From Opitutus sp. (lineage in GTDB: Bacteria; Verrucomicrobiota; Verrucomicrobiia; Opitutales; Opitutaceae), in assembly GCA_024998815.1 (NCBI GenBank), contig JACEUQ010000002.1, positions 820,501-884,500 on the forward strand: a stretch of 64,000 nt of DNA, in the 5' to 3' direction. Shown here piece after piece: positions 3,447 through 39,171 of this stretch. The notes beneath the pieces are model-generated. The model saw only the letters and a list, made by a program, of their open reading frames with translations, searched no databases and was not told the origin of the DNA. How positions within the stretch are numbered: position 1 is the first letter of the stretch; each line of letters starts with the position of its first letter. Position numbers and translations under genes: made by a program.

Positions 3447-4301
3447 TCATCTCACGCCGCGGCGCTTCCATTCGGTGGGACTGCAGCCCATCACTTGCCG
3501 GAATTGACGGCTGAAAAAATAGAGGCTGGCATAGCCGTATTCTTCGGCGATCTGGCTGACATTCAGGTTTGATTCAGTGAGGCGCTGCGCGGCGGAGCGG
3601 ATGCGTTGGTTGATGAGCCAGCGTTCAGCGGAGATGTCAAAGGTCGCGCGGCAGAGTCGGTTCATGTAGTCGCGCGAAAGTTGGAGCTGCCGTGCCATTT
3701 CGGAGGTGTCGGGGTGAACTGCGGCGGGGAGTTTTTGCGCCCACTCGTTGAGGATTCGAATCTGGGTCGGGCTTAATTTTCGTTCGCTCTCTGATTGAGA
3801 AGGGGAGGTCGGATGTTGGAAAAAGGTGATGGAGAGCAGACCTGCCACGGCGCAGCGCAGGGACCGCGACGGGCGCAAGGTCGGCAGGTAGGATTCTTGG
3901 CGGACCGCTTCCCGCCAGGCTGTGCTCAGCTGGGCATTTCGAGCCACGATAAAATCATTTTTCAGTGCAAAGTTGAAAGATCTCGATTTTTCCACGCGCA
4001 GACGGAATCTGGCCAGGGAAGTCACCACCGGTTCACCCGACTCCAGACGGAACGGGACCTCGGGCCCGATCCAAATTGCATCGCCTGCTTTCAGGTCAAC
4101 CATGTGACCTCCGACTTCGGCCTTCATGCTTCCTTTTTTGCAGAAGTAAAAAAGATGGTGAGGAATACCGGACGCTTCAGCCAACCACCCCTCCCGCGGA
4201 CGAAAATCCATCGGCGTCGCGCTCAGTTCGAAAAGGAGCGTATTATTTTCATTCAGCAAGTGACTGAAAAAAGTATCCGGTAATACGCGCAGTCTTTTCA
4301 T
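3447..4301 (-). CDS. AraC-family transcriptional regulator
   Basis: A 284-aa regulator. Residues about 20-110 form a cupin-like sugar-sensing domain (PHHLFYFCKKG, then LKAGDAIWIGPEVPF). The last 100 residues hold two helix-turn-helix motifs of the AraC type, with the signature IAEEYGYASLYFFSRQFRQ and CSPTEWKRRG at the end. It is divergent from the 673-aa gene at 4380 across 78 bp, so it most likely controls the 4380-10463 operon in response to a sugar. The effector cannot be read from the sequence. Confidence 0.9.
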   Translation of the reverse strand: MKRLRVLPDTFFSHLLNENNTLLFELSATPMDFRPREGWLAEASGIPHHLFYFCKKGSMKAEVGGHMVDLKAGDAIWIGPEVPFRLESGEPVVTSLARFRLRVEKSRSFNFALKNDFIVARNAQLSTAWREAVRQESYLPTLRPSRSLRCAVAGLLSITFFQHPTSPSQSESERKLSPTQIRILNEWAQKLPAAVHPDTSEMARQLQLSRDYMNRLCRATFDISAERWLINQRIRSAAQRLTESNLNVSQIAEEYGYASLYFFSRQFRQVMGCSPTEWKRRGVR

Positions 4302-4379: not shown

Positions 4380-6401
4380 ATGAATACTTTCATTTCCACG
4401 AACGGCACGAAGTTGAGTCTCTCGCCTGAATCGGATGCCAATCTCCAAGCCTGGCTAAACCCGCCCGCAATGGGTTTCAGGAAGGACGGCAAAATGCTCG
4501 AAACCCCATTCACGGTGAATGCCGGGGATGGTCTCTGCGTCGGTCATGACGAGGCGCGTGGTCTCACCATGAAGCGCAGTCAGCGCATCGAAACAGGATC
4601 CTTGATCCTCGACATGCGTGCCGATGCGACCGGCGACTTTCACGGCATCTCTCTGCGCCAGAGCGTGGATTTCTCGCTTTCCTCGAGCAGTTATGTGATC
4701 GCTCCGGGCGTCGTTTACGACGGCAATCGCCTTTTGGTCTCTCCCCAGCCATACTGTCCGTATTTTCCAACGGAAGGCGTGTCGGCCGACGGCCCGATCC
4801 TCATTGTTGATGTCCCACGGCTTGCCTCTGCGACCGGCTATCACCTCGAACTGGCCGGCAATGCCCTCACGCCCCCTTTCGTCGGCATCTACGATCCGAT
4901 CAGCAAAACCGGCGTGCTGGTGGAAATTCAAATCTACGGCGATTGGGGGGTAAGCGGAGTCTCTTTCACGACATTGCCCGATCAACCGGTCCGCGTCACA
5001 TTCACGCTGCCAGTGCATCGCCTGCGGCGCTACCGCTTCTGTGATTGGGTTGCGGCCGACGAACCCGGCATGGATCTCGCCGCAGGCCAGTCGATCGAGG
5101 CCCGCTTGCGCATCATCCCGGTTTGTGCCAAAAACATTCCCGCTTTTGTGCACCAGTTGGCCCTTCACAGTTTCGAGGCCCGCGACAAAGGCCCGCTCGA
5201 ATCGCGCAGGAATCTTGGCAAGAAACTGCGCGAGGCGGCCGACCTCGTGGAGGCGAAATTCGACCGCATCAACTGGGTCGAGAGCGATGGATTTTACCGC
5301 TCAACGCTCCCGCAAACGAATTCCCCATTTGTCATGCAGAGCGGTTGGTCGGGTGGCGGGGTCACGATGCGCGCGCTGATCCAGTCGCCCGATGCCACGC
5401 GTCGCGAGCGGGCGAAGCGGATGCTTTCTTTCCTCTGCACGGCGGCGACACCAAGCGGGTATTTTCACGGCGTATGGAATGGCAAACGCTGGCTGAGCTT
5501 CAATGCCAAGCGCCCGGGCTGCCGCGCCTTCACTCTGGTTCGGCGTCCGCTGGAACTGGGTCGCGACATCCTCCATGCAATGAATGTGCTGGAGGCGCGC
5601 GGCGAGGCGCTTGAGCCCCTCTGGATCGAGACGGCGCGCCGTTTTCTGGACGCCGTGGTGAGCACGGAGCGGCGTTTCGGACACCTGGGTTACAGTCTCG
5701 ATCCGGAAACCGGCGATGTCTTGTGGGGTGACAGCACGGGAGGGGCCTTTGCGTTGGAAGCGCTCGCCCACGGCTACCGGCGCTTCGGATCCCCGTGCTA
5801 CCTTCAAACCGCCAAGCGGCTGGCGGCCTATTACCGCGAACACTTTTTGCTTCGAGGATTCACCTGCGGCGGAGTGGGCGACGCGCTCATGGCGGTCGAC
5901 AGCGAGAGCAATTACGCGCTCATGGCGGGCCTGGTTCATCTCCATGAAATCACACTCGATCCGATTCACCTCGAGTGGGCGGTCGAGGCCGCCGATCTGG
6001 TGCAGACCTGGACGCTCCTCTACGACGCGCAGTTTCCCGAGGGCACTCCGCTCCGGCGTCTCGGCATCGAGCCGCGCGGGGCGTATTTCGCAAACATCCA
6101 GAACCAGCATGGCGCTCCGGGCATCTATGTCGCCTCCGGCATCGAACTGGCCACCCTGGCGCGCCACACGGGAGACAATCGGTTTTTGGAACTGCTCCGC
6201 GAAATCACGGGCTGCATCCCGCAGATGGTGGTCAAGCCCGGTCAGGAAGATGTCTGGGGAGATCTTCCGGTCGGTTCGATAAGCGAGCGTCTCATGACCA
6301 TGGATGGACTCGAGCCGAACGGCCACACCCAGCCGATCGATACCTTCGGGAATGTCCCCATGACTGCTGCCAATGAACTTCCTGCCGAACTCTTGGATTA
6401 G
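4380..6401 (+). CDS. uncharacterised 673-aa toroid-like protein, candidate glycoside hydrolase
   Basis: I do not recognise a named family. The N-terminal 260 residues look beta-rich (SSSYVIAPGVVYDGNRLL, GDWGVSGVSF, RRYRFCDWV). The remainder is helical, with repeating motifs resembling an (alpha/alpha)6 six-hairpin glycosidase barrel (GWSGGGVTM, PSGYFHG, ERRFGHLGYSLD, CGGVGDALMAVDSESNYAL). The protein is clearly paralogous to 28804-30843. Acidic residues conserved in both copies include D451 in LWGDS and D507/E509 in DSESNYA, candidates for catalysis. There is no obvious signal peptide. It is the first gene of a likely operon with an FAD oxidoreductase and a GH36 alpha-galactosidase, which supports a role in oligosaccharide breakdown. 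Function is inferred only. Confidence 0.75.
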   Translation: MNTFISTNGTKLSLSPESDANLQAWLNPPAMGFRKDGKMLETPFTVNAGDGLCVGHDEARGLTMKRSQRIETGSLILDMRADATGDFHGISLRQSVDFSLSSSSYVIAPGVVYDGNRLLVSPQPYCPYFPTEGVSADGPILIVDVPRLASATGYHLELAGNALTPPFVGIYDPISKTGVLVEIQIYGDWGVSGVSFTTLPDQPVRVTFTLPVHRLRRYRFCDWVAADEPGMDLAAGQSIEARLRIIPVCAKNIPAFVHQLALHSFEARDKGPLESRRNLGKKLREAADLVEAKFDRINWVESDGFYRSTLPQTNSPFVMQSGWSGGGVTMRALIQSPDATRRERAKRMLSFLCTAATPSGYFHGVWNGKRWLSFNAKRPGCRAFTLVRRPLELGRDILHAMNVLEARGEALEPLWIETARRFLDAVVSTERRFGHLGYSLDPETGDVLWGDSTGGAFALEALAHGYRRFGSPCYLQTAKRLAAYYREHFLLRGFTCGGVGDALMAVDSESNYALMAGLVHLHEITLDPIHLEWAVEAADLVQTWTLLYDAQFPEGTPLRRLGIEPRGAYFANIQNQHGAPGIYVASGIELATLARHTGDNRFLELLREITGCIPQMVVKPGQEDVWGDLPVGSISERLMTMDGLEPNGHTQPIDTFGNVPMTAANELPAELLD

Positions 6402-6430: not shown

Positions 6431-8260
6431 ATGACCACACAAAACACATCCCAAACCCGCTGCCTGAAAGCCAACCGGCTCACGGCTGACTTCGTCGTGA
6501 TTGGAGGTGGCATGGCAGGGACCATCGCCGCAATCGCCGCAGCCCGCAACGGGGCGAGTGTCATCCTCGTGCAGGACCGCTCGGTCCTTGGAGGCAACGC
6601 CTCCAGCGAGATCCGCATGCACATTGTCGGCGCCGATTCCCATGGCGGAAAGCCCGGCTGCCGCGAAACCGGCATCCTTGAGGAATTGCGACTCGAGGAC
6701 GCCGTGCGCAACCCTCACCGCAGCTACTCGCAGTGGGATCTGCTGCTTTACGAGAAGGTCAAAGCTGAAGCCAACATCACGCTTCTTCTCGACACCACCT
6801 GCGTGAGCGCCGAGGTCGCCGCCAATGCCAGCGGCGAACGCCGCATCACGGCGATCCGTGCCTTGCGCAATTCGACGGACGACGAATTTCTTATCGAGGC
6901 AAAATGGTTTGCCGACTGCAGTGGCGACGGCCGCCTCGGCGCGGAAGCGGGTGCCGATTTCACCGAAGGCCGCGAGGCGCGCGCAACCCATGGTGAACCG
7001 CTCGCGCCTGAGCAAGCCGACAACAACCGCCTCGGCAGCTCGATCATGTTCATGTCGCGCGAGCATGCCACCCCTCAAGTTTTCATTCCGCCCAACTGGA
7101 TCCGCAAGTTCACGAAGGAGGACTTCAAGGGTCATCGCGATATCTTCAGCTACGAATACGGCTACTGGTGGTTCGAGTGGGGTGGTCATCTCGACACGAT
7201 CAAGGACAACGAAACCATCCGTCACGAACTGCTGCGCATCGCCCTGGGCGTCTGGGATTATGTGAAAAACTCCGGTGATCATCCCGGTTCGGCCAACTAT
7301 GCCCTCGACTGGGTGGCGGCGATCCCCGGCAAACGCGAGAGCCGCCGTTTTCTCGGTCGCCATGTGCTTTCGGATAAGGACATTTTCAATCCCGAAACAC
7401 GGCCCGATGCCGTGGCCTATGGTGGATGGCCAATCGATCTCCATCCGGTCGAGGGCGTCGACGATCCGGAAAAGCCGGCCTGCGTGCATCATGGCTTCAA
7501 GCACCTCTACAGCATTCCCTATGGCTGCTACTGCTCGCGCAATGTGGAAAACCTCTTCTTTGCCGGACGCAACATCAGCGCCACCCACATCGCCTTCGGC
7601 AGCACCCGAGTCATGGCCACTTGCGCGATCGGCGGTCAGGCCATCGGCACCGCTGTGGCATTGCTCACTTCGCAAAAGGCGCGATCCAGCTCGGAACTCG
7701 CGACGCCGGAAGGCTTGCAGGCACTGAGGCAGCGCCTCCTTCGCGACGATGCGTTCATTCCCGGAGTTCGCCACGAAGATGCCGCCGATCTCGCTTCGAG
7801 CGCCCGCATCAGCGCCAGTTCGGAATCATCCGAAGGATCTGCCTCATGCGTGACCGATGGCACTTCCCGTCACCTCAAAGCACAATGGGGACCGTGGTCC
7901 GCCGATGAAACCCACTCTTGGAAATCGCAGACGCTTCCCGCCACGCTTCGCCTGGAATTCGCTCAGCCTGCCACACTCAGCGAAGTGCACCTCACTTTCG
8001 ACACCGGCCTGGAGCGCGAACTGATGCTCAGTGGCAGCGACAAGTGCTCAAAGAAAACCCTCCGCGGCCCGCAACCCGAGACGGCAAAACACTACCGACT
8101 GCTCATCGACGGCAAGCTCGTCGGCGAGGAGTCATTCAACTATCTGCGCAAACGCATCCACCGCCTTCCGACACCGCAAACCTCCCGTCTCGTCGAATTG
8201 GAAATCCTCGCCACCCACGGCGTGCCCGAGGCCCGAGTCTTCGAGATCCGGTGTTATTGA
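6431..8260 (+). CDS. FAD-dependent oxidoreductase with C-terminal discoidin-like region
   Basis: A 609-aa protein. A dinucleotide-binding Rossmann motif (VVIGGGMAGTIAAIAAARNG, about residues 22-41) and GGNASSEIRMH place it in the FAD_oxidored family (PF12831-type), common in polysaccharide loci of Verrucomicrobiota and Planctomycetes. A second FAD-contact segment is seen at NLFFAGRNISATHIAFGSTRVM. After about residue 455 a beta-rich tail (SSARISASSESSE, then LEFAQPATLSEVHLTFD) resembles a discoidin/F5-8C carbohydrate-binding fold. The gene lies 29 bp after the 673-aa gene and 19 bp before the GH36 gene. The substrate is unknown; a sugar or glycoside hydroxyl is plausible. Confidence 0.82.
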   Translation: MTTQNTSQTRCLKANRLTADFVVIGGGMAGTIAAIAAARNGASVILVQDRSVLGGNASSEIRMHIVGADSHGGKPGCRETGILEELRLEDAVRNPHRSYSQWDLLLYEKVKAEANITLLLDTTCVSAEVAANASGERRITAIRALRNSTDDEFLIEAKWFADCSGDGRLGAEAGADFTEGREARATHGEPLAPEQADNNRLGSSIMFMSREHATPQVFIPPNWIRKFTKEDFKGHRDIFSYEYGYWWFEWGGHLDTIKDNETIRHELLRIALGVWDYVKNSGDHPGSANYALDWVAAIPGKRESRRFLGRHVLSDKDIFNPETRPDAVAYGGWPIDLHPVEGVDDPEKPACVHHGFKHLYSIPYGCYCSRNVENLFFAGRNISATHIAFGSTRVMATCAIGGQAIGTAVALLTSQKARSSSELATPEGLQALRQRLLRDDAFIPGVRHEDAADLASSARISASSESSEGSASCVTDGTSRHLKAQWGPWSADETHSWKSQTLPATLRLEFAQPATLSEVHLTFDTGLERELMLSGSDKCSKKTLRGPQPETAKHYRLLIDGKLVGEESFNYLRKRIHRLPTPQTSRLVELEILATHGVPEARVFEIRCY

Positions 8261-8279: not shown

Positions 8280-10463
8280 ATGACCAAACTTCTTTCGAAA
8301 TTCACCGTCGGCGACACCGTCGTCCGTTTTGACGCCCCTGCTGAAGGCAAGGGCGCGCCGCAACTGTCGCTTCATCCCAAATCGCTCGCGCCGGGGAAGC
8401 ACCGCGAGTTTCTACCGCCAGATGTCGAGATCGTAGGCCTGCCGGCCAAGTGGCAACCAAGGCGCGCGTGGGCACTGGACTCCCTCGTGCAGCTCAAGTG
8501 CATGGAAGACATCTACGGTGGATCCTTTTCTCAAGGTCGGACGATGCGCTCAGGACACTCGACGGCCGTTCTCGAATTCATTGGTCAGAAGGTTCAGAAA
8601 ATGAACGGCGGCACCAGCGTCGTCACCACGCTCCAGCACCCCTCGGGACTGCGCTGCGAACATCAACTTTCCTGGCAGGGGAATGTGCCGGTTTTTTCCA
8701 GCCGGGTGAGTGTGCGCAACGCCGGCAAGAAACCGGTGCCCCTTGAAATGCTCAGCAGCTTCTCGCTCGGTGGCATGACGCCTTACGCCCATGACGATGC
8801 GCCGAATCGATTGCTGGTGCATCGCTATCGTTCTACTTGGAGCGCCGAAGGCCGCCTCGACACGCAAGGCATCGAGGACCTGCAACTCGAGCGTTCGTGG
8901 ATCGGACACGGCATCTCCAGCGAACGCTTCGGCCAGGTCGGCTCGATGCCGGTGCGAGGATTTTTCCCCTTCGTTGCGCTGGAAGATCGTGAGGCCGGCG
9001 TGCTCTGGGGCGCGCAACTTGCATGTCCCGGATCTTGGCAGATGGAGGTATTCCGCAAGGATGACTTCGTCGCGCTCTCCGGCGGCCAGGCCGACCGCGA
9101 GTTTGGGCATTGGTTTAAAACATTAAAGGCAGGCGAAACCTACGACACGCCCGTCGCTACGATCGGCTGCATAAAAGGTGATATCGATCAACTCGCGCAG
9201 CGCCTCAGTTCCGCACAGGAGCGCTCTCTTACAAAGTTGTCCAAGATAGAAAACGAGCTGCCCATTGTGGTGAATGAGTGGTGCACGAGCTGGGGAAATC
9301 CGACACAGGAAAATCTGCTGGCGCTGGCCAAGCGTCTCCACGGAACCCCGGCAAAGTATCTCGTCATCGACGATGGCTGGGCCGAGCGGCCCGGCGGAGG
9401 TATCCAGCAGAACGGCGACTGGATCATCAACCGAACGGCATTTCCCGACGGCCTCGCTGCGACCTGCCAAGCGCTACGCGACCACGGACTCATCCCTGGC
9501 ATCTGGTTCGAGTTCGAGGTCTGCAACCCGGGATCAAAGGCCTTCGATCTCACCGATCACCATCTCCAGCGCGATGGTCGCGTTCTTCAGGTCGGCGGCC
9601 GCCGCTACTGGGATTTCCGCGATCCCTTCACCTCCGATTATCTCACTCAAAAGCTGATCCATCTCCTGCGCGACAATGGATTCGGTTACCTGAAGGTCGA
9701 TTACAACGAAACCATCGGCTTCGGCGTCGATGGTGCCGAGTCGCCCGGCGAGGGCCTGCGGCAGCATCTGGAGGGCGTTCAAAAATTCTTCCGCAAGCTG
9801 CGCGAGGAGATTCCCGACCTCGTCATCGAGAACTGCTCGTCCGGCGGGCACCGCCTCGAACCCTCGATGATGGGCCTCTGCGCGATGGGATCGTTTTCCG
9901 ATGCGCACGAGACGCGCGAGATCCCGATCATCGCCGCCAACCTCCATCGCCTCATCCTGCCACGCCAGTCGCAGGTCTGGGCCGTTCTGCGCAAGAACGA
10001 CAGCGCACAGCGCCTTGCCTACTCTCTCGCAGCCACCCTCCTCGGCCGCATGTGCCTTTCCGGCGAGGTCCACGACCTTTCACCGGCACAGTGGAAGCTC
10101 ACCGTTTCGGCTATGGAACTTTACCGCCGCGTCTATCCGATCATCCGCGACGGTCATTCCACCTTCCACGGCGAAACCGGCAAAAGCTGGCGTCACCCAA
10201 AGGGCTGGCAGGCCGTGCTGCGCACCGCAAAAAACGGCAAGCGCGCCCTGCTCGTCGCCCACACCTTTGGAAGGTCCTTTCCGAAATCCGTCGAGATCCC
10301 TCTGCCGGATGCCGGATGGGAAGTGGAGGAAACTTGGCCCAAAAAGCATGGCATCCCGGCAAACCTGAAAGGCAAGTCCGTGCAACTCGACCTAACCGGC
10401 GAGTTCCGCGCGACTGTCATCTCCCTGCGCAAAAGACCGAATATGCCACCGCCGATTCATTGA
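8280..10463 (+). CDS. GH36-type alpha-galactosidase
   Basis: A 727-aa enzyme of glycoside hydrolase clan D. The barrel is recognisable from PIVVNEWCTSWGNP, KYLVIDDGWAERP, GLIPGIWFEFEVCNPGS, and GYLKVDYNE, which holds the expected nucleophile Asp (about D474). SDAHETREIPI holds the expected acid/base Asp (about D541). ENCSSGGHRLEPSMMG is also typical of GH36. The N-terminal 330 residues form the beta-supersandwich domain. The ATG at 8280 was chosen because the longer in-frame reading from 8031 overlaps the oxidoreductase gene. No signal peptide is evident, so it probably acts on imported alpha-galactosides. It is the last gene of the 4380-10463 set. Confidence 0.92.
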   Translation: MTKLLSKFTVGDTVVRFDAPAEGKGAPQLSLHPKSLAPGKHREFLPPDVEIVGLPAKWQPRRAWALDSLVQLKCMEDIYGGSFSQGRTMRSGHSTAVLEFIGQKVQKMNGGTSVVTTLQHPSGLRCEHQLSWQGNVPVFSSRVSVRNAGKKPVPLEMLSSFSLGGMTPYAHDDAPNRLLVHRYRSTWSAEGRLDTQGIEDLQLERSWIGHGISSERFGQVGSMPVRGFFPFVALEDREAGVLWGAQLACPGSWQMEVFRKDDFVALSGGQADREFGHWFKTLKAGETYDTPVATIGCIKGDIDQLAQRLSSAQERSLTKLSKIENELPIVVNEWCTSWGNPTQENLLALAKRLHGTPAKYLVIDDGWAERPGGGIQQNGDWIINRTAFPDGLAATCQALRDHGLIPGIWFEFEVCNPGSKAFDLTDHHLQRDGRVLQVGGRRYWDFRDPFTSDYLTQKLIHLLRDNGFGYLKVDYNETIGFGVDGAESPGEGLRQHLEGVQKFFRKLREEIPDLVIENCSSGGHRLEPSMMGLCAMGSFSDAHETREIPIIAANLHRLILPRQSQVWAVLRKNDSAQRLAYSLAATLLGRMCLSGEVHDLSPAQWKLTVSAMELYRRVYPIIRDGHSTFHGETGKSWRHPKGWQAVLRTAKNGKRALLVAHTFGRSFPKSVEIPLPDAGWEVEETWPKKHGIPANLKGKSVQLDLTGEFRATVISLRKRPNMPPPIH

Positions 10464-20068: not shown

Positions 20069-20923
<855 letters not shown>

Positions 20924-25502: not shown

Positions 25503-26455
25503 GTGAACGACCCCACCCCCGCATCGCCCCGGCCCGCATCGCCTCCAAAAACCTACAGCGTAGGCACCCTCACTTATACCAAGATGGGGCTGGTGGCGTT
25601 GTTTGGATGGCTGCTCTGGGGAGACTTTTGTTTTCAGGTCATGGAGTCCCTCAACCCGGCGATCGTGCCCCTCAAGCTGCGCAGTCTGGACGCGCCGAAC
25701 TGGGCCATCGCACTGATCATGACGACGCTCCCCGGTATGCTGAACACGACGGTGTGCCCATGGGTGAGCTTCAAGAGCGACCGCCACCGCGGACCGATGG
25801 GGCGCCGGATTCCTTTCATTCTCTACACGCTGCCGTTTTTGACCGGCTGCCTCCTGCTTCTCGGCTTCTCCGAGCAGATCGGGCATGTTCTGCACGGCCT
25901 CCTGCCTGTCTCTTGGGGCCTGTCGCACTCCACCGTCACCATCGCCTGCATCGGCGTCTTTATGGTGGCCTTCAAGTTCTTCGACATGTTCGTGAACTCG
26001 GTTTTCTGGTATTTGTTCAACGACGTCGTTCCGCAAGAATTCCTCGGCCGTTTCCTTGGCATCTTTCGAATCGTCGCCCACTTGGAGTCGATGATTTTTG
26101 GGTTCTTCATTTTTAAGCACGCGGAAACCCACATGACTGAAATCTACGTTAGCGCCGCGCTCCTTTATGCCGTCGGCATGGGCCTTATGTGCTGGAAGGT
26201 AAAGGAGGGCGAATACCCGCCGCCGCCCGAAACTGACAAGGCCGGAAGCGGTTTTTTTACCCAAGTAAAACTCTACGTCACCGAGTGCTATACCGATCGC
26301 TACTACTGGAATCTATTCCTGTGCACTGCCTGTTGGGCAATCGCGGGCACGCTCGGGGTTTTCAATGTCTTCCTGCAAAAATCCATCGGCCTCGATCTAG
26401 CGCAGATCGGCATGATCAGCGGCACTGTGAGCTTCATGAACATGCTGTTAACCTA
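25503..26455 (+). pseudogene. MFS sugar transporter, N-terminal part (interrupted by IS)
   Basis: The first 317 codons of a major-facilitator transporter (GTG start at 25503). Hydrophobic helices alternate with cytoplasmic loops; the DRHRGPMGRRIPFILYT loop is typical of GPH/SLC45-like sugar carriers, and FNDVVPQEFLGRFLGIFRI is the second such loop. The frame is broken at 26455 by an IS with a 7-bp TAACCTA duplication. Removing the IS and one repeat restores one 470-aa protein with the part at 28270-28729. Confidence 0.88.
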
Positions 26456-28262
26456 GAGCCTGTCCCAAATTTCCGGATTTTTAAAAAGTGCGCAGAGGTC
26501 CATTGGGATTGCGGGCGAACGAGGTGGCACGAATCACCCCAGCGACGTTAAACGGCGGCCCGAATCGATTTTTCCCGCCCCCAAGCGCGGTAGTAAGGTA
26601 CGGCAAAGCCGGGGCGAGCCCCAGGGTTATTCACATTTTTGCCGGAAAATTGAATTAAGCGGCCAGCGGAAGTGTTATTTCCTCGGCAAGGATTCGTGAC
26701 ACCAGCCAGAGGTTGTGACCGAGTACACTCCAACCCACCGAACGGTAGCGGTTGGCAAACCCTTTACAGCGCAAGCGTCCGCCGAGGCGTTGTTTGAGGA
26801 TCGCAATGCGCGCTTCGGTCGCCGAACGGCGCCGCTGCAATTGGGCGAAGCGTTTTTCGCTCAAACGCTCCTTGAGCGCGTGCGGATCACGCGGGCATAC
26901 CGCATCGTAAACGTCTTGTTGCTTGAGCATTGCGGAAGTTTTTTTGGTGGCGAAGCCGCGGTCGGTGCCGACCGCGCTAATCGGCGCACTCAGGTCAAAG
27001 CGGTTCTGCCGCGCCAGGCTTTCCTCGAGTTGGCACCATTCTGCCGGAGCCGCGCCCTGGTAGAGTTGCCAGTCGGTGATTAAACCGGAGAGCGCCTCGC
27101 TCAACAGCAACGAGTTGCCAAACTCGACTTGGCTCCCTGCTTTGCCGCGAACCAGTACGTTCACATCAAGTTCATGCACGCTGAGGATCTTTTGGTCGTT
27201 GGGCACCGGGCGTCCGCCGATGATGCGCTCGTGGGCCTGCTTGATGACGGCGGGCAGTTGGCCGAGCATAGCGTCGATGCGGGTGGTTATCCGCTTGGTT
27301 TGGCGTTGGCTGTAATGGGTTTGGCTATACTTCTGCGCCAACAGGTCGCGGTGGCGGCGGGCATGTTCTCCGATCGTGCGTAACAGCGTCTTCATCTTGC
27401 GCAGGATCTGTTTACGCGCGCGCTTGGCGTCGTTGCGGCGGCCTGCGTGGGTCATTGACATGCACAACTTGTTCATCTGCTTGGCAAAGCACTCCGGCTC
27501 TTCAGGCATACGGTGGAGCAGTCCAGCGCGGCGGATTAAAATCATGGCCTTGAGCAAAGTCTTGGACACATCACGCAACAGCACCCAGTCCACCGGGAAG
27601 TGGATGTTGGTCTCCAAGCACGTGCCGTCGATGAGGCAAACATCCATGTCCAGCGGCGCGCTCAACCCGAGTTCAGTGGCGCGATCCTTCTCGCCGCACA
27701 TCTCCACCAACACTTGCCCCATCCAGCGCACCTGTTCGGCGGTGAAAAACTTCGAGGCCCGCTCCAGCACACTTTTGGACGCCCCCTTGATTCCCTCAAG
27801 CGTGCGAACACCGCAAAAATCCGCCAGTAAATCACTTGAGGCAATGCTACGGGAAAGCTCGCGAAAGGATATGTTGCCCAAATGCACCCGCAACACTTCA
27901 AAGCGTAACGCTTTGAGCGCAAACTCCATACGCTGGCGTAGTTGTGCGACACTGGCTTGGCCTGCCCCCGCCTTGGCAAAGTCCATCGCCATCGTCTCCA
28001 AGTGGCTGCCACGCAACAACGCGTCGAGTCCTTCCAATTGCTGGCGAAACTCGGCGTAATCTTTATTGGCACCGACTGGCGTTAGCGCCGGACGCAACCA
28101 GCGTTGCAGGGCAATGGCCGAGGTGGCGGATACGGGTTTTGACTTCATGGCCGATTATAGCGGCTTTTTTTTGACCAAAACCAGGGAATTACCCCTCTTT
28201 AGGCATCATTAAACTTATGCTAATAGTTCACTGCTAGGTTTTTATGCTTTCGGGACAGGCTC
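26456..28262 (-). mobile_element. 1807-bp insertion sequence, copy A
   Basis: The element has 11-bp terminal inverted repeats (GAGCCTGTCCC at 26456-26466 and GGGACAGGCTC at 28252-28262) and a 7-bp direct target repeat TAACCTA at 26449-26455 and 28263-28269. It carries one 497-aa transposase on the minus strand. A copy of identical length and protein lies in the opposite orientation at 56597-58403. It interrupts the MFS gene; the intact duplication indicates a recent simple insertion. Confidence 0.93.
26655..28148 (-). CDS. DDE transposase (497 aa), ISNCY-like, copy A
   Basis: A 497-aa transposase, identical to the one at 56711-58204. Catalytic candidates are Asp in MDVCLIDGTCLETNI, Asp in SAVGTDRGFATKKTS, and Glu in RRSATEARIAILKQRLGG. 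A long helical insert with many Arg/Lys (residues about 240-310) separates the first two. The exact IS family is uncertain; the length and layout resemble elements grouped as ISNCY. No defects are visible, so both copies may be active. Confidence 0.85.
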   Translation of the reverse strand: MKSKPVSATSAIALQRWLRPALTPVGANKDYAEFRQQLEGLDALLRGSHLETMAMDFAKAGAGQASVAQLRQRMEFALKALRFEVLRVHLGNISFRELSRSIASSDLLADFCGVRTLEGIKGASKSVLERASKFFTAEQVRWMGQVLVEMCGEKDRATELGLSAPLDMDVCLIDGTCLETNIHFPVDWVLLRDVSKTLLKAMILIRRAGLLHRMPEEPECFAKQMNKLCMSMTHAGRRNDAKRARKQILRKMKTLLRTIGEHARRHRDLLAQKYSQTHYSQRQTKRITTRIDAMLGQLPAVIKQAHERIIGGRPVPNDQKILSVHELDVNVLVRGKAGSQVEFGNSLLLSEALSGLITDWQLYQGAAPAEWCQLEESLARQNRFDLSAPISAVGTDRGFATKKTSAMLKQQDVYDAVCPRDPHALKERLSEKRFAQLQRRRSATEARIAILKQRLGGRLRCKGFANRYRSVGWSVLGHNLWLVSRILAEEITLPLAA

Positions 28263-28269
28263 TAACCTA

Positions 28270-28729
28270 CCCCGCCGGAGCACTGGGCGACCGCTTCCAT
28301 CCCTTGCGAGTTCTGGTGTGGGTAAAGCTGATAAATCTGTTTTTCATGCCGCTAGGCCTGGTCTGGTTGTTCTTCGATTTTGCCCCCGCCACCGCGTTCA
28401 ACATCGCGATCTCGATCAGCGCCATCAATCTACCCTTCGCCGTCCTCACCGAGGCAATGATGCAGCCGATGAACATGCGGTTGCTACCGCACGACCGCTA
28501 CGGCCAGTTCTGCTCGGCCAATGCTTTGGTCCGCTCCTTAGGATCCATCATCGGTGGGGGCTTTGGGGGGCTGTTTCTCGACCTCATGAAACGCCTCCAC
28601 CATGGCAGCGACTACGCCTACCGCTACATCCCCGTCTGGAGCCTCTGCTGGAGCGCAGTCGCCCTCTTCTTCCTCTGGAGACTTTATCGGGATTGGAAGG
28701 CACGGACTCGCGTGGATTGCGCGCCATGA
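28270..28729 (+). pseudogene. MFS sugar transporter, C-terminal part
   Basis: The remaining 153 codons of the transporter interrupted at 26455. Across the IS-free junction the reading is MNMLLTYPAGALGDRFHP. Four more hydrophobic segments follow (VWVKLINLFFMPLGLVWLFF, AFNIAISISAINLPFAVL), with loop HDRYGQFCSANALVRSLG. A start inside the IS end (28244) gives an open frame, but only a third of the transporter could be made. The next gene begins 75 bp after the stop and probably shared its transcript. Confidence 0.85.
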
Positions 28730-31389: not shown

Positions 31390-34300
31390 ATGAATACCAT
31401 GTCCACACCCTTCCGCCTCCTCGACGTCCAACCCACGGCCCTATTCCCTAAACAAAAGGATGGGCAACTCCGCCAACTCGCCTGGTTGCGCGTGGCCAGC
31501 ATCGCGCCCGCCGCCGTTGCGGGGACGCTTGATGTCAATTTAGGGGGGCGCGCTTTACCGTCTCTTCCGGTGACCTTGGTTCCCGGCGAGTCGCGCTTGG
31601 AGCTGTTGCTGCCCGCCGTCTCCACGCCGACCGAGCTGGCGGTCGAGATGCGCTTCGAAGGCGAAACCGCGCCGCTGGTCTGGCGTGGCGAGTGGCAACC
31701 GGCGCGCCAGTGGAAGGTGTATTTGCTCAAGGCCTCTCACTACGATCTCGGCTACGACGGGCGCATCGACGTCATGCAGCGCGATGCCGCCGATTACCTG
31801 GACCTAGCCAGACGCCTCTGCACCGACCACGACCAATATCACGACTGGCACTATCACATTGAGCACTTGGGGTTTCTGCGTGCCTATGAACGCGAGCGAG
31901 GGCCGCAGGCTCTGGTCGCGTTTGTCGAAGGCTATCTCAAAACCGGCAAAATGACGCTGATGGGCAACCCCAGCGGCCCGCATTTTCACTGGATGGATTA
32001 CGAGCAACTCGCCCGCCTGCCCTATCCCGCCCGCCGACATCTGCGCGACCGCTTCGGTTTGGATGTCACCGGCATCGCCGTGCCCGACAACCCCAGCGTC
32101 TCTTGGCCCGGCTACCAGATTCTCGCGCAGGGCGGTTTCAGGCACCTGATCAAGCAAAAAACGTATTTTCGCGGCCCGGGACGCATTGCCCAAAGCCCGC
32201 GCAACCCGTTTCAACTGGGCTTGCCACCCATCGCTTGGATGACCGGTCCCGATCAAACCAGTCGCATCCTCACCAGCTTCCATGGCAGTTATAGCGAACA
32301 ATTCAATCTGGGCAGCGGCGGCGGTTATGGAGCCGCCTTTATCGATTCCGCCGCGCTTGATGCTACGAACTATCTGGAGCAACTGGCTCGTGGCGAGGTT
32401 CGCGGACCCTACCCTTACGATGCCGTGATCATTTCCAACTATGTTGATTGGGAAGTGCCGCATGAAGCGGAGCGCGCCATCGCCTCTTGGCGCGAGAAAT
32501 TTGATTACCCCAAAATTCAGTTCGAAAATGCTTTTGGGGCGCTCGCCTATCTCGAAGAAAAATACGGAGCAGTCATTCCTGAAATCCGGGGAGATACCGC
32601 CAACAATTCCGCCGACTACAGCAGCATTGATCCGAAGGCCCAAGGCGAAAAACGCGAGACCACCCGACTGCTCGCCTTTGCCGAGTCGCTGCACGTTCTG
32701 GCCGCCAGCCGGGATCCGGAAATCTTCGCCCCGCTCACGTGGGGTTTCGAGGAAGCCTACCAGACTTTGGTAGAGTTCGATGAGCACTGCTGGCCCACGA
32801 TGCTCTCGGTGAATGATCAAAACGTCTTCAACACCGTGGTCGTAAAACAGCATGGTCTTGGCCGCGCTCGCGCCTTCGTCGACCAAGCTATCGCGCGAGC
32901 CGAGCAAACTTTGCTGGGGAAAAATGAATACCCCGCATCCGTGCCGGAGCGCCTCGCCGTCTGGAACTCGCTGGCGCATCCTCGCAGCGGCATAGCCGAG
33001 TATCCACTGCCGGTTCAGGCTTTAAACCAAAGGGCCTACCATATCGTAGAGGAAACCACGGGAACAATCGTCCCGGCGGAATACACTCCGGAGGGCAAGC
33101 TGCGTTTCCACGCCGATGTTCCGGCGCTGGGTTACGCCGTGTATCGCTTGGCGCTCGGCTCGGTTTCGTTGCCCTCCGCTTTCGAGGTCGTCGCTCGGGA
33201 AGATGAACTCGCTGTCATCCTGCACAACCGTTGGTATCGCCTGGAAGTCAGTCGAGCCGACGGCGCGGTTCGCTCCCTGCGTAGTCTGGTTTTGGATCGT
33301 GAGTTGTTGGATGTGAAGGCTCAGTTCTCATTCAACACCTTCATCCGCTGCCATGCACCGGCACTTTTCTCGGCCGATCTCACCTTGAAGCGGATCGGGC
33401 ATTCCACTGTGCGTGTGCAAGATCAGGGACCGATCTCCGCCGCCGTTGAGATCATAACCAAGGACAACGAGTTGGACGTCGAGATCGTCACTACGCTGCG
33501 CCTCTTTGCCGAGGAGGATCGCCTGGAGGTGATTAACGACGTCCGCCGCATGGGATTCCTGCACACGACCAAGGCCGACCGTTATCGTGAGAATGTTTTT
33601 GTGGCCTTCCCATTCGCCGTGCCCGCAGCCTCATTCCGGGTTGAGCAGGGACCGGGAACGCTGGACCCGGCCAAGGATCTGGCTCCCGGTTCCAACACCG
33701 ACTTCGTGATGGCCAACCGCTGGATCGATGTCGCCAATGCCGACTTCGGCATCACTCTCTCCCCGCGCGAGGCGGCCTGCTTCCACTGCGGGCAGATCAA
33801 CTACAACCAGTTCGGTCCTAAGTTCAAAGCGACCAACTCCCATCTGTTCAACTACGTCTGGTCAAATCGCATGGCGGGCCTGACCCACCTCTCGGCGGGC
33901 TCTTATCAAGCGACCCTGAGCTACTCGCTCCGTGCCCACGCGGGCGATTGGAGAGCGGGTCAAGCCGCCGATTTCGGCTGGCGCCAAGCCCTGCCAGCGC
34001 TGGTTTCGGCCTGCGCTGCGGAAACACCCAACCGCCTCTCCGTGCTCAGCGTCGATGCGCCCAATGTGCAGCTCAGCGTCTTAAAACGGTCCGCCGCACC
34101 GGGACGCGGCAACATCGTCCGGCTGGTCGAAACCGAGGGTCGCCCCACCACGCGGGTTCGGCTCGGGTTGACCGGACTTCCCTGCGCCCAAGCCACGCTC
34201 TGCGACCTGGTGGAAAACGACCTTTCCCCGCTCCCGGTTCAGGGCAACACCGTGGAGTTCGACCTCGCAGCCTACGCCTTCGCCACGATCCGCCTGGAAG

Positions 34301-34923
34301 GCCCGGCGGAGGCATTACACGCCATCGCCGAGCTTTCCGTGCAACGCACGACCGATGCCAGCATCCACCTCGCCTGGCGAACGGTGGACGACCGTCCCGC
34401 TGCGGGTTTTCACATCTTCCGCAGCGAGGTCCACGCCGAGGCGCCCTCGCAAAGAACCCTGGTCGGCTACACCACCGACCGTGAGTTTGTTGACCGCGAC
34501 CTCAATCCCGGCACCGACTACACCTACCGGGTGGCCGTTGCCGCAGCGGATAACCGGCAAGGCCCCGCCAGCGCCCCGCTGCGCACCGCGACCGGGATCA
34601 ACAACACGACTCCGCCACGCCCGCTGGTCGAGGTCGGCGTGGTTCCCTTGCCCAGCAAGCGGCTCTGGCTCTACTGGCAACGCTCCGCCGAACGCGACCT
34701 CGCGCTCTATCGCGTCCACCGCTCCTCAACGCCCGATTTCATGCCAACCGCCGAGACCTTGGTTGCCGAGGTGCCGCCCGCTCGGGAGTTCTACGTGACC
34801 TATCGCGATGAAAACGTCGCCCCCGGCGAGACGTGGTTCTACCGCGTCCTGCCAGTGGACTTCGCCGCCCACGAGCAACGCACCTCCCTCTGCGTCTCAG
34901 GCACCTTGCCTCATCGGCTATGA
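31390..34923 (+). CDS. GH38-like alpha-mannosidase-type protein with fibronectin III domains
   Basis: An 1177-aa protein. After an N-terminal beta domain (about residues 1-105), a GH38-like catalytic domain begins with LLKASHYDLGY (H117 and D119 matching the paired zinc ligands of GH38), followed by TGIAVPDNPSVSWPGYQILA, which may hold the nucleophile Asp. Residues about 560-970 form the beta-sandwich domains usual after GH38 barrels. The last 200 residues contain two fibronectin type III modules (SIHLAWRTVDDRPAAGFHIF and KRLWLYWQRSAERDLALYRV). There is no clear signal peptide. The HWD of classical GH38 is replaced by HYD, so the specificity may differ. It probably removes alpha-mannosyl or related residues. 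Confidence 0.72.
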   Translation: MNTMSTPFRLLDVQPTALFPKQKDGQLRQLAWLRVASIAPAAVAGTLDVNLGGRALPSLPVTLVPGESRLELLLPAVSTPTELAVEMRFEGETAPLVWRGEWQPARQWKVYLLKASHYDLGYDGRIDVMQRDAADYLDLARRLCTDHDQYHDWHYHIEHLGFLRAYERERGPQALVAFVEGYLKTGKMTLMGNPSGPHFHWMDYEQLARLPYPARRHLRDRFGLDVTGIAVPDNPSVSWPGYQILAQGGFRHLIKQKTYFRGPGRIAQSPRNPFQLGLPPIAWMTGPDQTSRILTSFHGSYSEQFNLGSGGGYGAAFIDSAALDATNYLEQLARGEVRGPYPYDAVIISNYVDWEVPHEAERAIASWREKFDYPKIQFENAFGALAYLEEKYGAVIPEIRGDTANNSADYSSIDPKAQGEKRETTRLLAFAESLHVLAASRDPEIFAPLTWGFEEAYQTLVEFDEHCWPTMLSVNDQNVFNTVVVKQHGLGRARAFVDQAIARAEQTLLGKNEYPASVPERLAVWNSLAHPRSGIAEYPLPVQALNQRAYHIVEETTGTIVPAEYTPEGKLRFHADVPALGYAVYRLALGSVSLPSAFEVVAREDELAVILHNRWYRLEVSRADGAVRSLRSLVLDRELLDVKAQFSFNTFIRCHAPALFSADLTLKRIGHSTVRVQDQGPISAAVEIITKDNELDVEIVTTLRLFAEEDRLEVINDVRRMGFLHTTKADRYRENVFVAFPFAVPAASFRVEQGPGTLDPAKDLAPGSNTDFVMANRWIDVANADFGITLSPREAACFHCGQINYNQFGPKFKATNSHLFNYVWSNRMAGLTHLSAGSYQATLSYSLRAHAGDWRAGQAADFGWRQALPALVSACAAETPNRLSVLSVDAPNVQLSVLKRSAAPGRGNIVRLVETEGRPTTRVRLGLTGLPCAQATLCDLVENDLSPLPVQGNTVEFDLAAYAFATIRLEGPAEALHAIAELSVQRTTDASIHLAWRTVDDRPAAGFHIFRSEVHAEAPSQRTLVGYTTDREFVDRDLNPGTDYTYRVAVAAADNRQGPASAPLRTATGINNTTPPRPLVEVGVVPLPSKRLWLYWQRSAERDLALYRVHRSSTPDFMPTAETLVAEVPPAREFYVTYRDENVAPGETWFYRVLPVDFAAHEQRTSLCVSGTLPHRL

Positions 34924-35231: not shown

Positions 35232-36053
35232 ATGAACTCCCTCCGCCTCGCCGTCGCTCTCATGCTCCTGTCGTTGCCCGTCCTCGGCCTCGGACAAACC
35301 GCCTCGCCCGAGGTGCTGAAAGCGCACGCCTTGGACAGCCGCGCCCTCGGTCGCTCCGTTGCCTACTCGCTGTTCGTGCCGCCCGGCGTCGCGCCGTCCG
35401 GCGGTTGGCCGCTCGTGGTGATCTTGCACGGCGACGGGCGCAACCACCGCAGCCTGGCCGACGACGCCCGCGCCAAGGCCTTGATCGCCCGCCAGCCCTT
35501 CGCCGTCTTGTGCCCGAATGGCGACCGCGCCTGGTGGATCGATTCGCCGCTCGTCGCGGGCAGCCACTACCAGTCGATGTTGCGCGAGTTGTTGGACGCC
35601 GTGCCGCGCCAGTTTCCCGTCTCCGCCGCGCCCGCCAAAACCGTGATCGCCGGCTGGAGCATGGGCGGCTTCGGCGCGGTGCGTTTCGCGCAAGACCACC
35701 GCGAACGCATCGGCGGCCTGGCCATCGCCATGGCGCTGGTGGATTTCCCCAACCCCGCGCTGCCCAAGGAACAAAACTACGGCGTCCCGGCCGTGATGGC
35801 CGACCCCGCACGCTACGCCGAGTTCAACTGCCTCACGAAAGCCGAGCGCCTGCGCGGCCTCCCCATCCTGCAACTCGCACCCGTCGAGGCCTTCGACTTC
35901 ACCATGAACCGCAACTTCCACGCCCGCCTCACGGAGCTCGGCATTGCCCACGACTACCGCGAAATCCCCGGCGGACACGTCTGGAGCACGGTCAGCGACG
36001 CGCTGCCCGCACTGCTGGAATTTGCTCAAAAACAATTCCAGCCCGCGCGATGA
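35232..36053 (+). CDS. secreted alpha/beta-hydrolase (esterase-like)
   Basis: A 273-aa protein with a signal peptide (MNSLRLAVALMLLSLPVLG, cleavage near residue 21). The alpha/beta-hydrolase fold shows the oxyanion strand LVVILHGDGRNHRS and the nucleophile elbow GWSMGGFGAV (Ser of G-W-S-M-G). The catalytic Asp is probably near LQLAPVEAFDF, and the His is in IPGGHVWSTV. It resembles dienelactone-hydrolase or feruloyl/acetyl-esterase-like enzymes that deacylate polysaccharides in the periplasm. Its stop overlaps the ATG of a ROK remnant. Confidence 0.85.
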   Translation: MNSLRLAVALMLLSLPVLGLGQTASPEVLKAHALDSRALGRSVAYSLFVPPGVAPSGGWPLVVILHGDGRNHRSLADDARAKALIARQPFAVLCPNGDRAWWIDSPLVAGSHYQSMLRELLDAVPRQFPVSAAPAKTVIAGWSMGGFGAVRFAQDHRERIGGLAIAMALVDFPNPALPKEQNYGVPAVMADPARYAEFNCLTKAERLRGLPILQLAPVEAFDFTMNRNFHARLTELGIAHDYREIPGGHVWSTVSDALPALLEFAQKQFQPAR

Positions 36054-36235
36054 GCCAGCCGCCCAACGACCTCCTCCCCGGCATCGACCTCGGTGGTCTT
36101 ATGAGCGCCGTCGTGATCGGCGACAACGACGCTGGGTTTGGACGCGAGTTCAAAGGTATGGGCATCGTCTGCGGCAGACCGCTCGACCTCGCGCAATGTC
36201 TCATCCTGAACGCCACGCTGGGTCCGCGTCTCTAG
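36050..36235 (+). pseudogene. ROK kinase remnant with internal deletion
   Basis: A 61-aa frame whose start and end match separate parts of the ROK gene at 37616: LLPGIDLGGLMSAVVIGD corresponds to its ATP-binding LLLGIDLGGTKTAVVLGD, and GMGIVCGRPLDLAQ to GVGIACGGPLDLAQ-like sequence. The stretch between is deleted and the rest of the kinase is missing. It is a decayed duplicate wedged between the esterase (ATGA overlap) and the transporter start 3 bp later. Confidence 0.75.
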
Positions 36236-36237
36236 CC

Positions 36238-37590
36238 ATGCTTTCACGCCTGCTACCTTCCAACAAGACCGACCCCGAACTGGGGCCGTTGAGACCGGGT
36301 TTGGTGTTTTCATTTTTTAATGCGATGGGGTGGCAGATTGCCATCGGCACCCCGTTGGTGCTTTTCGCGGAGCAACTGGGCGCTGGACCGGAAAAAGTGG
36401 GTCTGGCCGCATCGATGTTTTTTTTGCTCACGCCAGTGCAGATAGTGGCCACCGCGCTGCTGCCACGCTACGGCTACAAAGGGTTGATGCTTGGCGGCTG
36501 GCTCATTCGTTCGCTTCTGCTCCTGGTGCCGATCATGCTCGCGGTGCTGGCGCCAACGATCGGGGTGCGGTCGTGGATGGCTTCGGCTCTGGTCGGCATG
36601 ATCTTCTTTTTCTGTCTATTTCGAGCCATCGGGCTGGCCGCGATGATGCCGTGGTTTTACTCGATCATTCCCCAAGGGGCGCGTGGCCGTTATTTCTCCA
36701 GCGAGTCAATGCTGGCCGGGGTGTCTAGTGTGCTGACGCTGCTGGTGTGCGCGGGTTTGTTCGCGGTGCTGCCGGTTTTCCCGGCACTAGGCGTGCAATA
36801 CGGCATCTCGCTCGCGGGTTCGATTTGGAGCTACTATGCGTTGCGCCGCCTGCCAGACGGGCCGGTGCCCGAGCCGATCAAGCTCGAGACCGTGTTTCGT
36901 ACGTTGCCAGACATCGTGCTGCGAAGAAGCGAGTTTCGACGTTACCTTTGGCTATCGCTGCTTTGCTTTGCGACGACTGCGCCGATTCCCCCCTTCCTAG
37001 CCTATTACCTGAAAACCGTGCGCGAACTTGAACCGAGCTGGATCATGGGGCTCGAGGTCTTTCGCTACGGCGGGGTGATCCTTGCCTCGGTGCTCATCCG
37101 TCGGCGCATTGACGGGATGGGGGCGCGTCCCTTCGTATTGCTATCGTTCGGACTTTATTTTGGCCTCGCCGCTTACTGGATGGTTTTTGTGCGCACCGGT
37201 CTCGGCGGGAGCGTTGGTTTGATTGCGGCTTATATCGCGCTCGGCCTTGGCGGCGCTACTTGGACGGTGGGCAACCTCGCCTACCTGCCGAAGCTCATTC
37301 CGCCGGAGCAACGCACCTTGATGATTTCAGTTTATGGAGCTCTGACTTCGCTGGTGGCCGGGCTCGCGACCCTGGGCTGGGGCTGTGTGTTGCGACCGGC
37401 CGGCGCGGTGGTCGGGCTGGATGCGTGGCGCTTTCAAGTATTCTTCGGCGTGGCGATGGCAGGGGTGGCGTTCATTTCATTCCTATTTGCCCGCCGGCCC
37501 GAACCGAATGTCGAGCCGCCCAAGCCGCCATCTTCGGCAGCGGTCGGGCTGGTCCCAAAACCTGACGTCAGCTTAGCGCCCAGCGCGTAG
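36238..37590 (+). CDS. MFS transporter
   Basis: A 450-aa membrane protein with about 12 hydrophobic segments (for example LVPIMLAVLAPTIGV, ALVGMIFFFCLFRAIGLA, VSSVLTLLVCAGLFAVLPVF, LIAAYIALGLGGATWTVG). The loop IIPQGARGRYFSSESMLAG between helices 4 and 5 is typical of sugar or solute major-facilitator carriers of this group. The ATG at 36238 was chosen because the longer frame upstream overlaps the esterase gene out of frame. It is probably transcribed with the esterase and the ROK/SIS genes. The substrate is unknown, likely a sugar. Confidence 0.85.
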   Translation: MLSRLLPSNKTDPELGPLRPGLVFSFFNAMGWQIAIGTPLVLFAEQLGAGPEKVGLAASMFFLLTPVQIVATALLPRYGYKGLMLGGWLIRSLLLLVPIMLAVLAPTIGVRSWMASALVGMIFFFCLFRAIGLAAMMPWFYSIIPQGARGRYFSSESMLAGVSSVLTLLVCAGLFAVLPVFPALGVQYGISLAGSIWSYYALRRLPDGPVPEPIKLETVFRTLPDIVLRRSEFRRYLWLSLLCFATTAPIPPFLAYYLKTVRELEPSWIMGLEVFRYGGVILASVLIRRRIDGMGARPFVLLSFGLYFGLAAYWMVFVRTGLGGSVGLIAAYIALGLGGATWTVGNLAYLPKLIPPEQRTLMISVYGALTSLVAGLATLGWGCVLRPAGAVVGLDAWRFQVFFGVAMAGVAFISFLFARRPEPNVEPPKPPSSAAVGLVPKPDVSLAPSA

Positions 37591-37615: not shown

Positions 37616-38532
37616 ATGAGCTAACAGCCCTCTGATCTCCTCCTCGGCATCGACCTCGGCGGCACTAAGACCGCCGTCGTGCTCGGCGACGCCGCCGGCC
37701 AGGTCCACGCCCGCGCCCAGTTCCCGACCACCACACCCGACGAAACCCGCCGCCTCATCCGCGAGGCCGCGCTGGGTTTTGGCCGCTAGTTCCACCGCGT
37801 GGGCATCGCGTGCGGCGGGCCGCTCGACCTCGCGCAAGGCCGTCTGCTTGCCCCGCCCAACCTGCCCGGTTGGGAACACGCCCCGCTCGTCGCCTGGTTT
37901 TCCGCCGACTTCGGTAAACCCGTCGCCCTGGTCAACGACGCCAACGCCGGCGCGCTCGCCGAGTGGCGTTGGGGCGCGGGTCAAGGAGCAAGCGACCTCG
38001 TTTTCCTCACCTGCGGCACGGGACTCGGCGCGGGCATCATCGCAGGCGGACGCCTCCTCGCCGGAGCCGGGGGCAACGCGGGCGAGATCGGCCACGTGCG
38101 CCTCACCGAAGACGGCCCGCTCGGTTACGGCAAACGTGGCAGCGTCCAAGGCTGGGCATCAGGCGGCGGCATCGGACGCCAGGCGTGCGCGGCCGGCTGG
38201 CCCGCCGACACTTCGGCCAAGGACGTCGCGCTCGCCGCCGATGCAGGCGACCCACGCGCCATCGCGCTTTTGGAAAAAGCCGGGGGCAAACTCGGCCGCG
38301 CCGTCGCCCTGCTCGTCGATCTCCTCAACCCGCAGGTCGTCGTGCTCGGTTCGCTTTTCGCGCGCGCGCGCGCCGCCACCTCGAACCGGCGCTCCTACGC
38401 GAACTCCATACCGAAGCACTGCCCGAACTTCTCGCCGCCTGCCGCGTCGTCCCCGCCGAACTCGGCGAATCCATCGGCGACCTCCAGGCTCTCGCCGCCG
38501 CGCTCGAGCCGCAAATTCATCAAATCCAATAA
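37616..38532 (+). pseudogene. ROK-family sugar kinase, two stops and a frameshift
   Basis: In one frame it reads a complete ROK kinase: ATP motif LLLGIDLGGTKTAVVLGD, VNDANAGALAEWRWGAG with the catalytic Asp, and FLTCGTGLGAGIIAGGRLL. However, codon 3 is TAA (37622-37624), codon 58 is TAG (37787-37789), and near 38365 the frame shifts inside an alternating CG run. The C-terminus then continues in another frame (HLEPALLRELHTEALPELL) to a TAA at 38530-38532. ROK enzymes phosphorylate glucose, fructose or amino sugars. As it stands no full kinase can be made. The ROK zinc-binding motif is not evident. Confidence 0.85.
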
Positions 38533-38538
38533 ATCGCC

Positions 38539-39171
38539 ATGCCGAACAATTCATCGCACCGTGACCATCTTGCCGAGTTGCTGAATCGTCGCCCCGAACT
38601 CGCCCCGCTTGCCGCTGATATCCGCAATGCCGCCGACTTGTTTCTCGAATGCTTCCGCAACGGTGGCAACGCACTCATCGCCGGCAACGGTGGTAGCGCC
38701 GCCGATGCGGATCATTGGGCGGGCGAACTCATGAAAGGCTTCGAGTCGCGCCGCCCGCTCACGCAGGAGCAGCGCGCGGGTCTGCGCCCCGAGCTTGCCG
38801 ACAAGCTCCAGCAGGCCGTGCCCTGCATCCCGCTCACCGGCTTTCCGGCGCTCCGCACCGCCGTCGCCAACGATATCGACCCGACCCTGGAATTCGCCCA
38901 GCTCGTCATGGCTCTCGGCCGCCCCGGCAGCCTCTTCGTGGGTCTCTCGACCTCCGGCAACGCAGAGAATGTCTGCGCCGCCGCCGAGGTCGCGAGGGCG
39001 AAGGGGCTCAAGGTGCTCGGACTGACCGGTGAGGGCGGCGGGAAACTCGCGCCGCTCTGCGACCTCTGCCTCCGCGTCCCAGCCAGGCGAACGCTGGAGG
39101 TTCAGGAATTCCATCTCCCGATTTACCACACCCTCTGCCTCATCATCGAAAACGAATTCTTTTTAAACTGA
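38539..39171 (+). CDS. SIS-domain protein, phosphoheptose isomerase-like (GmhA-like)
   Basis: A 210-aa sugar isomerase (SIS) protein. Typical motifs are LIAGNGGSAADADHWAGELMKGF (phosphosugar-binding loop, about residues 50-72), SLFVGLSTSGNAENVCAA (second SIS loop with Ser-Thr-Ser) and KVLGLTGEGGGKLAPLCD. The layout matches GmhA, which converts sedoheptulose 7-phosphate to a heptose phosphate, but other phosphosugar isomerases share it. The start is 6 bp after the end of the ROK pseudogene, consistent with a former sugar-kinase/isomerase unit. Confidence 0.85.
   Translation: MPNNSSHRDHLAELLNRRPELAPLAADIRNAADLFLECFRNGGNALIAGNGGSAADADHWAGELMKGFESRRPLTQEQRAGLRPELADKLQQAVPCIPLTGFPALRTAVANDIDPTLEFAQLVMALGRPGSLFVGLSTSGNAENVCAAAEVARAKGLKVLGLTGEGGGKLAPLCDLCLRVPARRTLEVQEFHLPIYHTLCLIIENEFFLN

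Follow-up and report, generated by a model that had tools for sequence, protein, structure and literature searches.

Two genes in a 64,000-nucleotide stretch of an Opitutus sp. genome (hereafter the window) lie among genes for sugar utilization and encode related proteins, and the locus raises the question of what kind of sugar-active protein they specify and whether it belongs to a family already described. The first copy, P0001 (4380..6401, + strand, 673 aa), and the second, P0002 (28804..30843, + strand, 679 aa), are the sole full-length copies in the 4.24-Mb genome. They are identical at 322 of 627 residues in BLASTP (51%, 613 bits), confirming both open reading frames and the likeness over the whole length claimed by the original prediction. 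Neither protein reached a cut-off in Pfam (copy of 2025), where the best model was PF07944 (GH127) at 16.9 and 18.7 bits against a cut-off of 24.9. A search of NCBIfam 20.0 gave neither a hit reaching its cut-off nor any match of substance, and a sequence search of the PDB gave no match, in agreement with the earlier statement that no family could be named. The traces of named families in these searches (GH127, GH47, GH88, AGE and GH76) were sub-threshold or repeat-like and were rejected, and a viral fold library and phage records yielded nothing informative for the family. The term new family is used here for one that lies outside Pfam (2025) and NCBIfam 20.0 and has no sequence match in the PDB; it is not measured against the CAZy library.

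An AlphaFold2 model based on a 72-sequence alignment (pLDDT 93.5, pTM 0.94) places a beta-sandwich ahead of an (alpha/alpha)6 toroid, whose 12 helices form the six helical hairpins characteristic of the six-hairpin superfamily. Residues 1-252 of P0001 (4380..5135, + strand) are assigned to a galactose-mutarotase-like beta-sandwich on the basis of a separate model and of conservation. When residues 1-278 were modelled alone, the pLDDT was 86.9 and the best VIA match of the domain was the galactose-mutarotase-like structure 3k25 (Z 13.9, rmsd 3.3, 193 residues). A mutarotase-like domain often precedes the catalytic domain of glycosidases, and in this family it carries a conserved loop, P109-x3-Y113-x-G115-N116-R117 ... 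D144-x-P146. Residues 253-673 (5136..6398, + strand) make up the toroid. Among the 50 VIA matches listed for the whole model, the best for the toroid is the GH76 enzyme BT2949 (Z 27.4, rmsd 3.7, 327 aligned residues), and AGE-type epimerases appear at Z about 22-25. Structures of GH95, GH139, GH65 and the like do not occur in these 50 rows, which carries no weight for or against them. The toroid fold originally proposed from sequence motifs is therefore strongly supported by both the model and the GH76 and AGE structures.

The (alpha/alpha)6 fold also hosts lyases and epimerases. Over the whole chain the top Foldseek match is BACCELL_00875 (5no8; E 4.6e-12, VIA Z 23.2 over 488 residues), the PL27 L-rhamnose-alpha-1,4-D-glucuronate lyase. 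P0001 has the same order of domains, sandwich then (alpha/alpha)6, at 9% identity. The match covers both domains and would fit an exo-acting, PL27-like lyase that removes a terminal sugar next to a uronic acid by beta-elimination, using Y113, H577 and either N575 or R388, with the conserved acids binding hydroxyls. Against such a lyase, the 72-member profile found no sequence match to 5no8 or 5nok at E up to 10.

The AGE structures would fit instead an enzyme that isomerizes or epimerizes free sugars or disaccharides, comparable to cellobiose 2-epimerase or YihS. AGE enzymes are single toroids that are not known to have an N-terminal sandwich and that use two conserved histidines, whereas the family studied here has the additional N-terminal domain and, in place of the histidine pair, only one conserved histidine, H577. 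The corresponding Pfam model, PF07221, did not match P0001 and gave P0002 11.6 bits against a cut-off of 23.4; a remote relative of the family (L016) does pass GlcNAc_2-epim, with 27.5 bits against 23.4. We consider an epimerase improbable. More doubtful still seems a phosphorylase or transferase acting on glycosides in the way of GH94 or GH65: a mutarotase-like N domain followed by a toroid is the layout of GH65 and GH94, and cellobiose phosphorylases appear among the next Foldseek matches, but these have TM-scores of 0.2-0.35 with rmsd >19, and no GH65 or GH94 Pfam model matched P0001, P0002 or a 50-member sample of the family.

We compared the proteins with further families of related architecture. 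The alpha-mannanases of GH76 (BT2949, 4v1s) resemble P0001 in the toroid and leave its N-terminal sandwich unmatched; PF03663 (GH76) matched neither P0001 nor P0002 at E up to 1 and only 3 of 50 relatives, weakly. With a superfamily profile, a helical-hairpin stretch matched BcGH76 at E 2.7e-10 over one hairpin, and the two stretches can slide by one hairpin, so that the register is unsure and the catalytic Asp-Asp pair of GH76 is not placeable from this match. The nearest Pfam model, PF07944 (GH127/GH146), detected 25 of 50 relatives at E <=0.01 (best 2.1e-10). In GH127, unlike in P0001, the toroid is the first domain, and the GH127 set has invariant cysteines (C322, C388 and C389, in the Zn-ligand motifs ETC and CC), whereas no cysteine is invariant among the 72 members of our family. 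GH127 was also rejected by profile comparison, in which hhalign gave 93.7% with an alignment off register by one hairpin.

GH95 and GH139 have a catalytic geometry of Glu acid and Asn base. These exo alpha-L-fucosidases combine a beta-sandwich, a toroid and a small C-terminal beta domain (PMC12282258), a layout that resembles those relatives of P0001 that have a C-terminal extension, but not the P0001 clade, which lacks it. The GH95 Pfam model matched neither P0001, P0002 nor any of the 50-member sample, and for GH139, considered for its common layout and its RG-II context, no sequence link was found. The comparison with GH clans G, L and M (GH37/63, GH15/65 and GH8/48) recommended at the outset gave nothing, as no member model matched P0001, P0002 or the sample of 50 members. 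The recently described GH192-194, which are beta-1,2-glucanases of clan GH-S (PMC12102758), and GH195, which is related to GH99 (PMC13063451), do not fit the layout. Judged by sequence comparison, none of the named families tested (GH127, GH76, PL27, AGE and GH95) accounts for P0001 and P0002.

Searching public genomes with an alignment of eight sequences yielded 163 relatives, from which 79 distinct loci were retained. Members were found in Verrucomicrobiota, Bacteroidota, Bacillota (notably Paenibacillus), Acidobacteriota, Planctomycetota, Pseudomonadota, Spirochaetota, Lentisphaerota and Hydrogenedentota. Actinomycetota is represented by Streptomyces plasmids and a Nonomuraea replicon, which brings the spread to about ten bacterial phyla. 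Within the taxonomic family of the window genome the distribution is patchy, with a strong full-length match in 7 of 200 genomes. In a maximum-likelihood tree the window proteins form, together with L003, L023, L031, L032 and L034, a single long and fully supported branch (length 2.45). Inside this clade P0001 groups with L031, L023 and L003, whereas L032 and L034 are the partners of P0002; because the two window proteins fall into different subgroups, a recent duplication as the origin of the pair is ruled out.

A C-terminal extension with a median length of 78 residues is present in most relatives and missing from the P0001 clade, and the clade also departs from the rest of the family at otherwise constant sites (among them E198 to T, D392 to E and K576 to Q). 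All the blocks quoted originally as near-invariant (YVIAPGV-Y-GNR, RRYRFCDWV, LWGDS, CGGVGDALMA-DSESNYAL and NQHGAPG) were found in both window proteins, but RRYRFCDWV and LWGDS mark only this small clade. In a crude hydropathy scan, signal peptides were apparent in members from Bacteroidota, and none was seen in the window proteins or in those from Paenibacillus. Given this lack of a signal peptide, the substrates of the window enzymes are probably oligosaccharides taken up into the cell.

Conservation across the 72 sequences singles out a small number of candidate residues. No variation was seen at D507, E509, S510, Q574, N575, E636, R637, R388, W323, Y113 or N116, and position 501 holds either D or E in every sequence (D in P0001). 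D501, D507 and E509 (codons within 5880..5906, + strand) form the motif D/E-x5-D-x-E, which spans a loop and the start of the fourth inner helix, and the E636-R637 pair (6285..6290, + strand) lies in the loop preceding the last (sixth) inner helix. H577, conserved at 94%, is the sole conserved histidine column. The acids put forward initially fared unevenly: D507 and E509 are indeed invariant in all 72 sequences and lie where an inner helix begins, but D451 is not a family residue, since 88% of the 65 relatives that fall outside the P0001 clade have glycine at its site, and D/E501 and E636 had been missed.

In (alpha/alpha)6 folds the active site lies at the mouth formed by the N-terminal ends of the inner helices. 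With inner and outer helices told apart by their succession along the modelled chain of twelve, 33 of the 38 toroid positions conserved at >=93% fall in outer-to-inner loops or in the first five residues of an inner helix and 2 of the 38 in outer helices, and these loops and helix starts account for 218 of the 395 positions in the toroid (hypergeometric p = 1.5e-5 for the enrichment). Topology and conservation thus indirectly place conserved polar and acidic residues at the mouth where the superfamily has them, and to this extent bear out the original expectation that the acids would share a pocket and not lie scattered outside it. Positions 501, 507, 509 and 636 are acidic in 72 of 72 sequences from many phyla, and this retention of four acids suggests strong selection on catalysis. 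It argues against a non-catalytic sugar-binding protein descended from such enzymes, a reading that we regard as very improbable and that has a precedent in another toroid family, where a GH139 protein without its catalytic acid is suspected to be enzyme-dead (PMC12282258).

The family is not isolated. Three further sets of toroid proteins (670-780 aa) from relatives of the window genome were aligned with the family profile by hhalign, at a probability of 99.8% for L016/L014/L009 (E 1.3e-27), 99.3% for L012/L018/L010 (9e-21) and 99.1% for L013/L017 (5e-19). When four proteins of these sets were searched against Pfam, two remained below all cut-offs and two weakly passed GH127 or GlcNAc_2-epim. 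In a joint alignment of the four toroid families N116, D507 and E509 never change and position 501 stays acidic, while each of H577, N575, Y113 and E636 differs in at least one set: L010, L012 and L018 have other residues in place of H577 and N575, and L014 and L016 in place of Y113. D/E501, D507 and E509 are, on this alignment, the most persistent candidate functional residues of the group.

This persistence of the acids across four families favours acid-base hydrolysis over a lyase mechanism, although it is no proof; H577, N575 and Y113, which a lyase could use, are each lost in some sets. The PL27-like lyase is nevertheless the main rival explanation, because it has the same layout and because Y113, N575, R388 and R637 are invariant and H577 nearly so within the family; these residues, with the invariant Q574, could form a lyase site. 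Overall we consider the lyase unlikely. It is tempting to speculate, although we hold this at somewhat less than even confidence, that at least four toroid families with the motif D/E-x5-D-x-E, none of them named in Pfam or NCBIfam and one of them occurring in about ten bacterial phyla, constitute a clan-level group with a catalytic layout and linkage specificity new to CAZy.

Both copies lie in sugar-utilization units, as had been proposed. The unit of the first copy comprises a divergently oriented AraC-type regulator (3447..4301, - strand; PF12833, 1.5e-19), the toroid gene, a FAD-dependent oxidoreductase (6431..8260, + strand; PF12831, 3.2e-82) and a GH36-like gene (8280..10463, + strand; PF02065, 3.8e-30), whose reading frame opens at 8031 with a likely start at 8280. 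The AraC-type regulator is retained beside P0001-type genes in L031 and L035. A GH36-like homologue, 54% identical, lies near the toroid gene of L033, where the GH36-like gene and an MFS sugar carrier are found downstream of it. Oxidoreductases of the PF12831 type recur beside the toroid genes of the clade (in the window, L031 and L034); another PF12831 copy in the window, at 39254-40507, looks truncated.

The unit of the second copy consists of a LacI regulator, a split MFS carrier, the toroid gene, a GH38-like gene (31390..34923, + strand), a second MFS carrier (35944..37590, + strand; PF07690, 1.7e-14) and a ROK-family gene (37799..38584, + strand; PF00480, 8.2e-41). The GH38-like protein (1177 aa) contains a divergent GH38 N domain, GH38 C domains and fn3. 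A homologue 46% identical to it is found near the toroid gene of L034 (Puniceicoccaceae), which is adjoined by a ROK homologue; this locus again shows the gene order GH38-like, FAD-dependent, toroid, ROK. The catalytic N domain of the GH38-like protein is very divergent (E 1e-3), and the protein may itself represent an unusual family.

In other genomes the neighbouring glycosidases vary by locus and no single substrate emerges. Raw counts over 83 loci gave 15 with GH141-like beta-helix proteins, 12 with an unnamed family of about 600 aa, 10 each with GH43 and SSF carriers, 9 with SASA esterases, 7 each with GH3, GH95-like and GH88 genes and 6 with GH2, and some of the loci are SusC/D loci. Enzymes of the GH88 type act on unsaturated uronides, and their presence in 7 of the 83 loci is a point in favour of the lyase; the window copies, on the other hand, adjoin GH36-like and GH38-like genes and not uronate genes.

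Taken together, we favour, with slightly better than even confidence, the view that the proteins are an undescribed six-hairpin carbohydrate-active family, most likely of exo-acting glycoside hydrolases. The data show the family, its predicted fold, the invariant residues with their position in the topology, and the gene context; from these we infer catalysis, stereochemistry, substrate class and the part played by each acid as follows. The sandwich loop P109...Y113-x-G-N116-R ... D144-x-P146 would contribute to the probable active-site mouth, with D/E501, D507, E509 and the E636-R637 pair surrounding the same mouth. One of D/E501, D507 and E509 would act as the general acid, and either E636 or a second member of the 501/507/509 trio as the base, in a single-step hydrolysis that would free a terminal sugar from oligosaccharides of plant or algal type after their import. 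The enzyme of the window clade seems to be cytoplasmic, and its partners would be a sugar carrier, the FAD-dependent oxidoreductase and a glycosidase of GH36-like or GH38-like type.

Databases leave many proteins from sugar loci of Verrucomicrobiota, Bacteroidota and Paenibacillus blank, and the toroid family is among them. Being full-length and well conserved, with a confidently predicted fold and few candidate residues, it is directly assayable. If hydrolysis is the true activity, an enzyme family would be added to loci that contain GH141-like, GH43, GH36-like and GH38-like genes. On the strength of the predicted fold and the invariant acids, a new sugar-enzyme family of a familiar kind is credible; it would enlarge a well-known superfamily without introducing a new principle.

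The surveyed loci hold further proteins of interest. The unnamed proteins of about 600 aa counted above (L044:15521-17320, with homologues in 12 loci) adjoin the toroid gene in six loci, and a representative had no match in Pfam, NCBIfam or the PDB. Large Bacteroidota proteins beside the toroid gene (L081:2250-9648 and L053:4893-7403) likewise lack a Pfam match, and three of four such proteins are weakly similar to the NCBIfam model for oligosaccharide amylase (GH15-type).

The window region is rich in mobile elements. Transposase genes of the DDE_3, rve/Mu-type, DruA/DDE, IS110 and DDE_Tnp_1 types (124-3292, 10540-11880 and 20075-23142) surround both sugar units. The MFS carrier reported upstream of the second copy is present, but its gene (25503-28729) is interrupted by an insertion sequence of 1,811 bp (26454-28264), whose termini begin TAGAGCCTGTCCC. 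The N-terminal part of this sugar carrier (25503..26456, + strand) is cut by the insertion sequence, and the open reading frame of the C-terminal part (28244..28729, + strand) begins about 20 bases inside it. The transposase of the insertion sequence (26655-28148, - strand) is identical to that of a second copy at 56595-58405.
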